From: a virus
IMG/VR virus record: IMGVR_UViG_3300046796_000589
Span: 1 to 47,998 of that record
Strand: one strand, 5' to 3'
DNA length: 47,998 nt
This document shows positions 42,737 through 47,986 of this stretch, one piece after another. Numbering within the stretch: position 1 is the stretch's first letter; every line of letters starts with the position of its first letter. Both the position numbers and the translations under genes were made by a program. The notes under the pieces are model-generated. The model had not been told where the DNA came from and ran no database searches. It saw only the letters and a list, made by a program, of their open reading frames with translations.

Positions 42737-44532
42737 CCGACGGTTTCCCCCTCCAGCTCCGCTGCGGCAAGGGCCAGCGCCCGCGGTTCTGCCTTCAGAA
42801 TGAGCGCTTCGCCGACCGGATGCGGTCGATGGCCAAAGATCTGGTCAAGGCAAAGAAGCCGCTCGAGGTGATTCTCTTGGTCCTGAAAGCCGGAGCCGCG
42901 CAGAAAACCGAGGCGCGCTTCTCGGCCGTCGAGGAGCGCTGCCGGCAACTCTGCTCGGAGAGCAACGTCCGGGACCCGGGCCAGCCCAAGACCTTCAAGG
43001 ACGTGGCCGAGCTCTGGATGAACGGCACCCTGTGCCGACGTTACCCCGACGACGTCAAGTGCTTGCAAGGCACGCACCTGTCGCGGGTCCGGTCGATCTG
43101 CGCGGAGATCTTCCCGAAGCTCGGGCACGTGCCCGTCGCCGCGGTGACCAAGGAGCTCGCGCTCGAGGTGAAGGCGGACGTATCCCCGGGACGGGGGCAG
43201 GGCAGCCGGCGGCATTTTGCGCTCGTGATCCGGCGGGTCATGGCGATGGCCGTCGATCCGTTGGGGCTCATCGAGCACTCGCCGATCCCGAAGAAATTCG
43301 TCCCGCCCCAGGGCAAGCCCCCGATGTTTGCTTTCCTCTACCCGGAGGAGGATCAGGCCCTCTTGGCGGACGAGCGCATCCCGTTCGAGTATCGGCTGCT
43401 CTACGGCTTGATCGTTCGGACGGGCTTGCGCTTCATGGAGGCGCTGGCTTTGGAGCCCCGGGACATCGATCTCAAAAAAGGCACGCTCACGGTCCGCAAG
43501 AGCAAGACCGGGGTGCCGCGGCTGTTTCGGTGCTCGCCGGACGTCGTCGCGTCGCTCGCGGCCTGGCTCGAAACCCCGCGCGAGCGGCTCTTTGCCGAGG
43601 TCTCCCCGTCCAACGCGGCGAGGCTCTTTCGCCAGCACCTCAAAGCCGCGCTCGAGCAGGCCGGCCTCTCCCTCCGAGATCTGTTCACCCGCACCAAAGA
43701 GCAACGTCCGATCCGGATCCATGATCTCCGGGCGACCTTCGTCACCCTCTATCTCGGGGCAGGTCAGACCGAGCGCTGGGTGATGGACAGGACCGGGCAT
43801 CAACAGTCGGCGATGCTCGCCAAGTACTCGCGCCAAGCGCGGCATGCGGCGGAGCTGGAGCTCGGCCCGCCCTTGCCCCTCGATGAATGTCTCCGCGCCG
43901 TGCGAGGCGCAGACGGGGTTCCCCTACTTGACCCGTCGCCGAGTCGCACTGCCGAGGCCGATGCAGCAATCGGACAGCCAGGGAACTCTACGCCCGGTAA
44001 CGCCGAGGTGGCCCCGCTCGGTGGCGGATACGGGGCGTCTTCTTCTGGCGGTCGCCGCATGCGCACTGGCACCACGCCCGGTACGAGCCACGGCTCCGTG
44101 GACCGGAGTGCAAAGGTCAGCGCGCAGCCGGGGGCCGCCAGGGTGGCTCAGAGGGTGGCTCGGGCCCCCCGGAAACCCCGTCAAAAGCCCGGATTATCGA
44201 GTACCAGTTGTACTCGACGAGCCTTGCAGGCGTCTGCACCTGCCAAGAAATCCCGAGAAAAACGCACCGCTGACCCCGGGACTGTGCCGGGTGAGCCACC
44301 CCAAATGGGGGGGGTGGCTCAGAATCTCACCAGTGCAACATCATCACCACGTGAGGAGAACGACATGTCGGAGGATGTGGAGACAGTGCTCGCGCGCGCG
44401 CTCGACCGGGCGAGCAAGGCGGGGCAGTGGGAGACCGTGACGGCGCTCGCGGCCGAACTGACCGAGCGGCGACGGGCCAAGGCTGGGGTGGTCAGCCTCG
44501 ATGCGGCGCGCCAGAGGAAGGCGGACCGGTGA
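42733..44532 (+). CDS. int: Tyrosine integrase with long C-terminal extension
   Basis: 599 residues from GTG 42733 (GTGA overlap). The catalytic domain has RTGLRFMEAL (R near 233), VRKSKTG (K near 258), IRIHDLRATF (H330, R333), TGHQQSAML (H356) and KYSR (Y365). A SAM-like arm-binding domain is at about 70-200. The enzyme should end near residue 390, yet the frame runs on for over 200 low-complexity, basic residues through an att-like region and into a separately startable small gene (44365). In myxophage Mx8 the attP lies inside its integrase gene, so integration swaps the 3' end. The same may hold here. The length of the translated product is uncertain. Confidence 0.85.
   Translation: MTDGFPLQLRCGKGQRPRFCLQNERFADRMRSMAKDLVKAKKPLEVILLVLKAGAAQKTEARFSAVEERCRQLCSESNVRDPGQPKTFKDVAELWMNGTLCRRYPDDVKCLQGTHLSRVRSICAEIFPKLGHVPVAAVTKELALEVKADVSPGRGQGSRRHFALVIRRVMAMAVDPLGLIEHSPIPKKFVPPQGKPPMFAFLYPEEDQALLADERIPFEYRLLYGLIVRTGLRFMEALALEPRDIDLKKGTLTVRKSKTGVPRLFRCSPDVVASLAAWLETPRERLFAEVSPSNAARLFRQHLKAALEQAGLSLRDLFTRTKEQRPIRIHDLRATFVTLYLGAGQTERWVMDRTGHQQSAMLAKYSRQARHAAELELGPPLPLDECLRAVRGADGVPLLDPSPSRTAEADAAIGQPGNSTPGNAEVAPLGGGYGASSSGGRRMRTGTTPGTSHGSVDRSAKVSAQPGAARVAQRVARAPRKPRQKPGLSSTSCTRRALQASAPAKKSREKRTADPGTVPGEPPQMGGVAQNLTSATSSPREENDMSEDVETVLARALDRASKAGQWETVTALAAELTERRRAKAGVVSLDAARQRKADR
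44141..44321 (+). other. attP: Putative attP: core dyad with flanking arm-type repeats
   Basis: TCGAGTAC-CAGTT-GTACTCGA (44197-44217) is a perfect 8-bp dyad with a 5-bp centre, suitable as a core for strand exchange. GGGTGGCTC occurs at 44141-44149 and 44153-44161. TGAGCCACCCC (44292-44302) and GGGGTGGCTCA (44311-44321) form a perfect 11-bp inverted pair of the same sequence on the other side. Arms flanking a core dyad is the attP layout of lambda-type integrases. No host attB can be seen. Confidence 0.5.
44365..44532 (+). CDS. Possible separate small protein in the integrase frame
   Basis: 55 residues from ATG 44365, behind GAGGAG. MSEDVETVLARALDRASKAGQWETVTALAAELTERRRAKAGVV is a compact two-helix protein. 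It shares the frame of the integrase extension. The good ribosome-binding site and separate domain suggest it is also made alone. If integration occurs at the att-like region, it would be cut off from the integrase promoter in the lysogen. Confidence 0.45.
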   Translation: MSEDVETVLARALDRASKAGQWETVTALAAELTERRRAKAGVVSLDAARQRKADR

Positions 44533-44971: not shown

Positions 44972-45159
44972 AGAAGAAACGCACCCGCCCCGACAAGCAC
45001 ACCGAGCGCCTCCAATTGACGGACAAGGAGGTCCAGACGGCGGACGAGATCTTGATCCGGCTCAAGGCCCACCCGGACTACTCGTGCGTCCGTCCTCTGA
45101 ATAGGAAGACGGCGATCCGATTTGCCTTGGGGCGGTGTCTCGCGGGGATGGACGAGTAG
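44968..45159 (+). CDS. Small basic protein, possible ribbon-helix-helix type
   Basis: 63 residues from ATG 44968. MKKKRTRPDKHTERLQLTDKEVQTADEILIRLKAHPDYSCVRPLNRKTAIRFALGRCLAGMDE has a basic N-terminus, one strand (RLQLTD), and two helices, as ribbon-helix-helix repressors do. That fold is a possibility from the pattern strand-helix-helix. It directly precedes the replication initiator and could regulate it. Confidence 0.45.
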   Translation: MKKKRTRPDKHTERLQLTDKEVQTADEILIRLKAHPDYSCVRPLNRKTAIRFALGRCLAGMDE

Positions 45160-45164
45160 ACCGG

Positions 45165-45962
45165 ATGAACTACGAGGACGAGCCCTACGTACGGATGTAC
45201 ACGCGCAAGACCCTCACCTCGCGGCTCCTCGGGTGGGAGGGGCGAGCGGTGCAACAGGCGATGCTCAATGGCGAGTTCGACGCGGCGGGCATCTTCGCGA
45301 TCGAGGGCGATGCGGCCGAGTGCATCAGCGTCGTCACCGAACTGCCGCTCGAGATTGTGCGGGTAGGGCTCGATCGCCTGGTGAAGACCAAGACCTGGGT
45401 GGTGACCGGCAAGACCATCACCTGGCCCACCTACGAGGAGGCGCAAAACTGCATGCGTTCCGATAGGTTGCGGCAACGAGCGAGCCGCAAGGCGCGGGCG
45501 GAACGCTCCGTGACCGATGTCACGCCGAGTCGCCAGCCCGTGACCGATGTCACATCCGGTCACGCCGAGTCACGCGCTGTCACTCTCCCTCCCTCTGCTC
45601 CCTCCCATCCTCCCATCCTCCCTCCCTCCCCTGAAGATGAAGAGACATCCTCACCGGTGCGGCGGCTTGGCTGGTTTGTGCCGGCGGACTGGACCCCGAA
45701 GCCTACGCACCAGGTGCGTTGCCAGGAATTGCGCCTCGACATCGACGCGCTCTCCCGGGCCTTCCGGCTCCAGGAATTCAATAGGCAATACTCGGATTGG
45801 GACCGGCGCTTCGGGTCGTGGATCGAAGCCGAGCGGCTGAAGCGCGAGACGGCGGCGGGCAAGTCCGTCCCGGGTCTGCGCGGCGTCGGGCCGCCTCGCC
45901 ACGGCAGCCGACAGGGCAACGCGGGGATGACCGGATTCGAAGGACTGGAGAAAACCACATGA
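45165..45962 (+). CDS. Replisome organiser / replication initiation protein
   Basis: About 265 residues from ATG 45165 (GTG 45135 is possible). YEDEPYVRMYTRKTLTSRLLGWEGRAVQQAMLNGEFDAAGIFAIEG opens a winged-helix DNA-binding domain like those at the N-terminus of phage replisome organisers. SVVTELPLEIVRVGLDRLVKTKTWVV is part of the wing. A Pro/Ser/Thr-rich linker (residues 115-165) separates it from a C-terminal helical domain (ELRLDIDALSRAFRLQEFNRQ). The linker DNA holds phased repeats and a pyrimidine tract that may be the origin, as in lambda O. The following DnaC-like gene would recruit the host helicase. Confidence 0.7.
   Translation: MNYEDEPYVRMYTRKTLTSRLLGWEGRAVQQAMLNGEFDAAGIFAIEGDAAECISVVTELPLEIVRVGLDRLVKTKTWVVTGKTITWPTYEEAQNCMRSDRLRQRASRKARAERSVTDVTPSRQPVTDVTSGHAESRAVTLPPSAPSHPPILPPSPEDEETSSPVRRLGWFVPADWTPKPTHQVRCQELRLDIDALSRAFRLQEFNRQYSDWDRRFGSWIEAERLKRETAAGKSVPGLRGVGPPRHGSRQGNAGMTGFEGLEKTT
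45509..45632 (+). other. ori: Candidate replication origin inside the initiator gene
   Basis: GTGACCGATGTCAC occurs at 45510-45523 and 45540-45553, 30 bp apart. GTCAC begins at 45519, 45549, 45559, 45569 and 45579; the last four are exactly 10 bp apart, and all share one helical face. From 45581 to about 45632 the top strand is almost pure C/T (purines at only three positions). Phased initiator sites next to a strand-biased tract in the linker of the initiator gene recall lambda ori in gene O. Confidence 0.5.
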
Positions 45963-46660
45963 CCGCCGAAGAACTCGACCAGCTGCTCGAGCAGCAACCG
46001 CAGCGCGCGCCGGCGCCCGTCTCCGTGAAGGCCAAACGGTCCGGCATGTCCCCGAGCGGGGAGACCGCGCTCGAACTCCTCCGCGGCCTTGGCCCTCGCC
46101 CCCTCGGGGCGCTCGACCTCGAACTCCAGGCCCGGCAAGCCAAGGCCAAGGCGGAGCGCCGTGCGGCCGTCGTGGCGCAGCGGGAGAAGCTCTGGGGGCG
46201 TATCCGCCACCCGAGGCTCGCGGTGCAGCTGCGGGCACTGGACACCCCGTGCGGGCTGCTCCTGGGGCCGAGCGGCATCGGCAAGACCAGCGCCGCCCGG
46301 TGGATTGGCGCGCGCTACCCGGGCTGCTGGGTGACCGCCAGGGAGCTCGGCGCGGCCGAGCGCCACCACCCGCTCGGGGAAGGCCAGCCGCCGCTGCTCC
46401 GGGCAGCCATCGCGGCGCGGTACCTGTACCTGGACGACATCGGGACGGAGGAGCTCCGGGACTTGGGATCGATCCAGTTCGTGATCGACCAGCGATACTC
46501 GGCCGGGAGGGCGACGTTCGTCACGAGCGGCCTCACCCAAGCGGAGCTGTCCACCTACCTCGGCGCCCCCTACGTCCGGCGGTTGGTGCAGCAGCACGTC
46601 TGGATCGAGCAACGCCAGCTGCCCGTGCTGGTCGTCGATTGCCATCTGGAGACGCCATGA
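45959..46660 (+). CDS. DnaC-like AAA+ ATPase (helicase loader)
   Basis: 233 residues from ATG 45959 (ATGA overlap). Walker A GPSGIGKTS is at about residues 103-111. Walker B RYLYLDDIG is at about 153-161. An arginine-containing sensor (SSG-type TFVTSGLTQAEL) follows, and GAPYVRRLVQQ carries a candidate arginine finger. The N-terminal 90 residues are a charged helical region. It resembles DnaC/IstB-type loaders that place replicative helicase at an origin. With the organiser it forms a pair like lambda O and P. No replicative helicase gene is seen in this window, so the host enzyme is probably used. Confidence 0.8.
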   Translation: MTAEELDQLLEQQPQRAPAPVSVKAKRSGMSPSGETALELLRGLGPRPLGALDLELQARQAKAKAERRAAVVAQREKLWGRIRHPRLAVQLRALDTPCGLLLGPSGIGKTSAARWIGARYPGCWVTARELGAAERHHPLGEGQPPLLRAAIAARYLYLDDIGTEELRDLGSIQFVIDQRYSAGRATFVTSGLTQAELSTYLGAPYVRRLVQQHVWIEQRQLPVLVVDCHLETP

Positions 46661-47124: not shown

Positions 47125-47306
47125 ACGACCCCAAACCCGAGCCCGACAAGATCCACGAGGCCGCGATGGAACACGCCCGCCGGTTCAATCTGGTCTGCGA
47201 CAACGGCCAAATCATCTGCCTCCGCCAGGGCTGCGGGATGGAAGCGACGCTCCCGAGTCTGCTCTGTGCAGAGCACCTGGCGATGCACCGGAGGGGGCAG
47301 CGGTGA
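47121..47306 (+). CDS. Small zinc-finger-like protein
   Basis: 61 residues from GTG 47121 (overlapping the previous stop). EAAMEHARRFNLVCDNGQIICLRQGCGMEATLPSLLCAEHLAMHRRGQR places C-x6-C-x4-C and a CxxH, a plausible zinc site. The next gene starts in its last codon. Function unknown. Confidence 0.5.
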   Translation: MNDPKPEPDKIHEAAMEHARRFNLVCDNGQIICLRQGCGMEATLPSLLCAEHLAMHRRGQR

Positions 47307-47986
47307 GCCCGTATTACGACCATGGCGGGATCACGATCTACCACGGCGATTGCCGAGAGATCTTGCCGAGCCTCGGACGGTTCGATCTGCTGCTTACCGA
47401 TCCGCCGTATGGGATCGGGCTCAAGACGGACAACCGCACCCGAGACAAGCGCCCCAGCGTCCGTGATGCACACGTGTGGCGCTGCAAAGAACACGCGCCG
47501 GTTGCCGGGGATGACCAGCCGTTTGAGCCATCCCATCTGCTGGGCGTGGCCGGCTATCATGTGCTCTGGGGGGCCAACAACTACGCAAGCCGTCTCCCTG
47601 ACTCCCCTTGCTGGTTTGCGTGGGATCGAAAGTGCGGGCGCACCGGCGAGACGGTGCAGACAGACATGGAGCTAGCGATTGTGCTGGGTCACCACCGGAC
47701 AACGGTACGGGTCTTTCGTCACCTCTGGAGCGGGTATCAGCGCGACTCAGAAATCAGCGCCGGTTCGCTCCACCCCACCCAGAAGCCCGTCGCCCTGATG
47801 TCCTGGTGTCTCGGCTTCTTCCCCGAAGCCAAGACCGTCGTCGATCCCTACATGGGCTCGGGTCCCGTAGCGAAGGCCTGTAAGGATCGCGGGCTTCGGT
47901 ACGTGGGGATCGAGCTGGTCGAGAAGTATTGTGAGACGGCGGCCAAGAGACTGGCGCAAGAGACACTCTTTGGAGCCGCGCCATGA
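47303..47986 (+). CDS. DNA N6-adenine/N4-cytosine methyltransferase
   Basis: 227 residues from GTG 47303, behind GAGGGGG. TDPPYGIGL holds the catalytic DPPY at residues 33-36, and SAM-binding DPYMGSGPVAKAC is at 181 onward. The order DPPY first, then the FxGxG-type motif, makes it a class beta enzyme. HPTQKPVALMSWCLGFFPEAKTVVDP matches family features. DPPY is used by both N6-adenine and N4-cytosine enzymes. It may protect phage DNA from host restriction. There is no partner restriction gene. Confidence 0.88.
   Translation: MSPYYDHGGITIYHGDCREILPSLGRFDLLLTDPPYGIGLKTDNRTRDKRPSVRDAHVWRCKEHAPVAGDDQPFEPSHLLGVAGYHVLWGANNYASRLPDSPCWFAWDRKCGRTGETVQTDMELAIVLGHHRTTVRVFRHLWSGYQRDSEISAGSLHPTQKPVALMSWCLGFFPEAKTVVDPYMGSGPVAKACKDRGLRYVGIELVEKYCETAAKRLAQETLFGAAP

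Follow-up and report, generated by a model that had tools for sequence, protein, structure and literature searches.

Helically phased GTCAC repeats in the linker codons of a phage replisome-organiser gene as a probable embedded replication origin

A known case of a replication origin that is embedded in a phage initiator gene is that of bacteriophage lambda. The lambda origin lies in gene O, in the codons between the DNA-binding and the helicase-loading parts of the initiator, where an array of four 18-bp iterons, starting 20, 24 and 23 bp apart, is followed by an AT-rich region, and the gene for the helicase loader is next. In the lactococcal phage TP901-1, the rep gene (Phage_rep_org/replisome-organiser family) likewise contains a low-complexity linker between two domains, and the repeats in this linker probably act as an origin. 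In Bacillus subtilis, the unwinding region of oriC shows a two-part grammar, in which double-strand sites (DnaA boxes) stand next to a short-period element that is read as single strand (DnaA-trios, DnaD recognition element; PMC10201434). Here, we analyzed a candidate origin within a replisome-organiser gene in a stretch of viral DNA of 47,998 nt (IMG/VR record IMGVR_UViG_3300046796_000589; hereafter the window), which is a linear, possibly incomplete contig. The locus shares with lambda the position in the linker codons, an array followed by a compositionally biased tract, and the adjacent loader gene. However, the repeat unit is a 5-bp core, GTCAC, at a distance of 10 bp, with mixed orientation upstream, the tract is short-period and GC-rich rather than AT-rich, and lambda O contains no GTCAC. 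TP901-1 rep contains neither GTCAC nor GTGAC, and the window protein has no Pfam hit to PF09681 (Phage_rep_org_N, TIGR01714) at E <= 1, although other initiators with GTCAC arrays do match this family. Compared with the DnaA-trios, which have a 3-nt period and are read by DnaA, the period here is 5 or 6 nt, the reader is unknown, and the element is located inside a phage gene. Thus, "lambda-like", as this locus was called in the first-pass annotation, is right for the layout but not for the parts. Literature searches, which did not cover most subscription papers or the review most likely to be relevant (Weigel and Seitz, 2006), found no description of GTCAC-phased phage origins.

Features of the organiser gene and its surroundings in the window, with the basis of each assignment
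Position	Strand	Feature	Basis
42826-44532		Phage integrase (PF00589) with a long C-terminal extension, just upstream of the replication genes	
45165-45962	+	Replisome-organiser/initiator gene (265 aa; possible upstream GTG start at 45135)	ORF; viral relatives found by the N-terminal domain; structure neighbours in BFVD include phage HTH and replisome-organiser proteins
45213-45431	+	Codons of the predicted winged-helix-like N-terminal domain (aa 17-89)	AlphaFold2, mostly pLDDT 84-97, H-E-H-H-E-E order
45432-45515	+	Codons of the predicted long basic helix (aa 90-117) directly before the array	AlphaFold2; conservation over 62 sequences
45508-45523	+	First 16-bp copy CCGTGACCGATGTCAC with inverted arms, GTGAC at 45510 and GTCAC at 45519	Direct repeat
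45529-45533	+	Degenerate iteron GTCGC in the 10-bp register	Sequence; 1-mismatch match
45538-45553	+	Second 16-bp copy CCGTGACCGATGTCAC, GTGAC at 45540 and GTCAC at 45549	Direct repeat
45559-45563	+	Iteron GTCAC	Sequence
45569-45573	+	Iteron GTCAC	Sequence
45579-45583	+	Last iteron GTCAC (followed by T, as in most relatives)	Sequence
45584-45633	+	Short-period pyrimidine tract (CTCC-type; family form has 5-nt period), candidate unwinding/loading element	TRF, period 4; family lag-5 autocorrelation
45702-45863	+	Codons of the predicted helical C-terminal domain (aa 180-233), the part that varies between relatives	AlphaFold2; alignment
45959-46660	+	DnaC-like helicase loader gene, start overlaps the organiser stop (ATGA)	phrog_50 1.1e-8, phrog_3277 7.6e-8
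47303-47986		DNA methyltransferase gene, shortly downstream of the loader	phrog_67 2e-39; N6_N4_Mtase

The five GTCAC positions given in the first-pass annotation are exact, whereas the two longer copies, described there as 14 bp, are really 16 bp; their 14-bp core GTGACCGATGTCAC is as described. The 30-bp gap between the first two GTCAC copies is not empty, because the degenerate GTCGC and the second inverted GTGAC fill the register, so that 45509-45583 reads as a nearly continuous 10-bp register. The tract that follows has 46 pyrimidines in 50 nt, mostly C. In the whole window, GTCAC is the only pentamer with at least four copies at exact 10-bp steps. Shuffling of synonymous codons within the ORF, which keeps the protein, gave such a chain with P = 0.0016, and shuffling of the codon order gave none in 5000 trials. 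The copies lie in different reading frames, as 10 is not a multiple of 3, so this is a repeat at the level of the DNA and not of the protein. However, the strict 10-bp spacing is not universal. The close relative L002 (56% identity), the first relative found, has spacings of 10, 9, 9 and 10 bp at the same place, together with a pyrimidine tract, and the family also shows steps of 20/21 bp with alternating GTCAC and GTGAC.

The organiser itself has no significant Pfam or PHROG match, and therefore its role in replication rests on relatives, neighbours and layout. A fold search in PDB gave only weak matches, none at E <= 0.001, mostly to CRP/FNR-type winged-helix regulators. In the AlphaFold2 model, a low-confidence, predicted disordered stretch of about aa 118-178 separates the basic helix from the helical C-terminal part. 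The array codes for aa 116-140 (pLDDT 42-47 per block), so it lies essentially in this linker.

A search for relatives based on the loader found none, and a tblastn search in annotated phages found no relative of the organiser. To avoid circularity, we searched viral contigs with only the N-terminal 110 aa, using an alignment of 13 sequences. Some of these had themselves been found through the DNA pattern, so the seed was not wholly blind, but the search used protein patterns outside the linker. It yielded 66 relatives, several of which match PHROG replication initiators, and 62 genes remained after removal of near-duplicates and addition of the window. Among all pentamers, GTCAC ranks first for chains of at least three copies at steps of 9-12 bp (35 genes; next TCACG, 9 genes). 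With steps of 9-11 bp, 34 genes were observed, against a mean of 1.06 and a maximum of 4 in synonymous shuffles of the same genes. The distances between copies peak at 10 (134), 20/21 (118/21), 30 (68), 40/41 (48/21), 50/51 (28/10) and 60-62 bp, and the copies occupy all three reading frames (115, 77 and 104). As related sequences are not fully independent, these counts are descriptive. Upstream, GTCAC and GTGAC alternate about 10-11 bp apart. The reverse orientation GTGAC cannot run through all three frames, because one frame reads TGA, which apparently explains why long direct runs are GTCAC on the coding strand. The core persists across relatives with about 30% protein identity. Members without GTCAC carry other repeated cores in the same linker, namely GTTAC/GTAAC in L410 and GACAC/GTGTC in L415, natural specificity variants, whereas L419 and L444 carry GTGAC in the coding orientation. 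L436 and L454 lack a clear array but keep a period-5-like tract. Of the genes downstream of the organisers, 17 of 58 match the DnaB-like helicase family phrog_19 and 16 of 58 the DnaC-like loader family phrog_50. The first-pass annotation had proposed that homologous organisers without a conserved repeat or phasing would refute an origin; this test was run and the idea survived.

The pyrimidine tract of the window is the local form of a short-period tract found in the family. In 46 genes, the 45 nt after the last GTCAC have a lag-5 self-identity of 0.51 (shuffled 0.286 +- 0.010), with further peaks at 10, 15 and 20. The units are CTAGC, CGTGC and similar, giving 5-residue protein repeats. The tract of the window peaks at lags 4 and 8 instead, so it is a decayed or altered form. 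In other initiator classes, the tract has a period of 6 (GATAAA/GATACA; CAGAxx) or 5 (AGAGA-like) and is purine-rich. The two-part layout of an array followed by a short-period tract is therefore shared, while the sequence of the tract is class-specific.

To explore how widespread this layout is, we also searched by the DNA pattern alone. In 96 of 120 hits, the spacers between the copies differ while the core stays. The 56 non-redundant ORFs that hold arrays match PHROG replication-initiation, replisome-organiser, DnaD-like, O-like and primosomal families (DnaT proteins among the matches), each in part of the set. Initiator homologues with arrays also occur in bacterial genomes, such as Escherichia albertii, an Oxalobacteraceae strain, Lysobacter and Brevundimonas. 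The cultured phages Tritos (E. coli), pAEv1818 (Aeromonas) and phita81A (Pseudomonas) carry two arrays each, and the regions viewed show no origin annotation. In these three phages, as in L393, L394, L395 and L443, a second phased GTCAC array lies inside the codons of the N-terminal domain, roughly 190-260 bp before the linker array, and may allow looping or be a second binding centre. The pattern CTGAC, chosen as a control, gave 84 stretches but turned out not to be neutral, as a set of its ORFs are initiators with GTCAG at 10-bp steps on the coding strand and mostly period-6 tracts; the enrichment of GTCAC over chance in this collection thus has no clean pentamer control. The control with GTCAC at 12-14 bp gave 38 stretches, some of them in another replication protein. 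Another replication protein family (phrog_22470; L142 and L144) has GTCAC copies at 12-13-bp steps. In genome contigs, the strict pattern mostly returned plain tandem repeats, and searches of genomes drawn evenly from a phylum or class were too sparse to give a prevalence.

Taken together, these results strongly support, although in the absence of binding, unwinding or replication data, that the segment 45508-45633 is the replication origin of the phage, embedded in the linker codons of its own initiator gene. In the inferred mechanism, several organiser molecules bind the phased GTCAC sites through the conserved N-terminal domain and its long basic helix, all on one face of the DNA, and form a compact nucleoprotein filament, which opens or captures strands in the adjacent tract. 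There, the C-terminal domain would hand over to the loader encoded by the next gene, which places the replicative helicase. Some observations argue against this view. The array of the window is shorter than in many relatives, its tract lacks the 5-nt period and is not AT-rich, unlike classical unwinding elements, and the GC skew of the window shows no sharp turn at the array. Phage origins are rarely mapped and rarely annotated; if the interpretation is right, a simple rule of about four GTCAC or GTCAG at one helical turn inside an initiator gene finds origins directly from sequence in many phages, including cultured E. coli phages.

Alternatively, the array could be an operator, at which the organiser represses or times transcription of its own replication operon, with the origin located elsewhere. 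Phased short repeats also serve as operators, the array is inside the first part of a replication operon, and the second arrays found in some relatives could loop. Nevertheless, this is unlikely as the sole function: the array lies mid-gene and not at a promoter, it is followed by a conserved short-period tract that an operator does not need, and the organiser/loader layout matches known embedded origins. Both functions could coexist. It is still less likely that the array is a by-product of protein-level selection for a V/T/S-rich linker or of replication slippage. The linker is indeed low-complexity and VT-rich, and slippage makes tandem repeats, but the use of all three frames, the loss of phasing in synonymous shuffles, the divergent spacers and the persistence of the core across distant relatives disfavor this explanation. 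A partition (centromere-like) site is very unlikely, even though phased 10-11-bp repeats appear to be typical of some plasmid centromeres, because the array sits in replication initiator genes in many phages, the neighbours are helicase or loader genes, and no partition gene was seen among the neighbouring ORFs searched.

Over 62 N-terminal domains, the most conserved residues are at the start (E6, Y8, R10, Y12, R14, T16), D39, G42, and in the basic helix (A93, Q94, S99, D100, R103 in 60/61, R108 in 59/60), and not on the surface of the predicted recognition helix. Other initiators with arrays also carry a basic helix right before the array. In the GTCAG class, this helix resembles the basic region of eukaryotic bZIP proteins, e.g., CREB or BZLF1 of EBV, and the bZIP half-site TGAC is contained in both GTCAG and GTCAC. 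The PROSITE bZIP signature (PS00036; the pattern used may differ from the database entry) matched 4 of 12 proteins of this class, against 0 of 3310 other ORFs. A profile of the helix hit bZIP proteins in 19 of 22 PDB matches at E <= 10 (best 0.014), while three column-permuted profiles hit none. Pfam bZIP models appear below threshold on the proteins L208 and L191, and AlphaFold2 predicts one continuous helix at 107-143 in L208. However, no leucine zipper was found, and the resemblance does not extend directly to the family of the window, for which the signature matched 0 of 62 proteins and the helix profile gave no PDB hit. Convergence is more likely than descent. It is possible, but only tentatively so, that many tailed phages share one origin grammar, with helically phased TGAC-core pentamers in the linker codons of the initiator followed by a class-specific 5- or 6-nt-period tract, and that the pentamers are read not by the winged helix but by a long basic helix that works like a bZIP basic region, a reading mode that is, to our knowledge, not known from phage replication initiators. 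One organiser, L430, has an inserted stretch (VVYFLQSEDGGPIKIGRS...) between the N-terminal domain and the repeats that, by eye, resembles a GIY-YIG-type segment.
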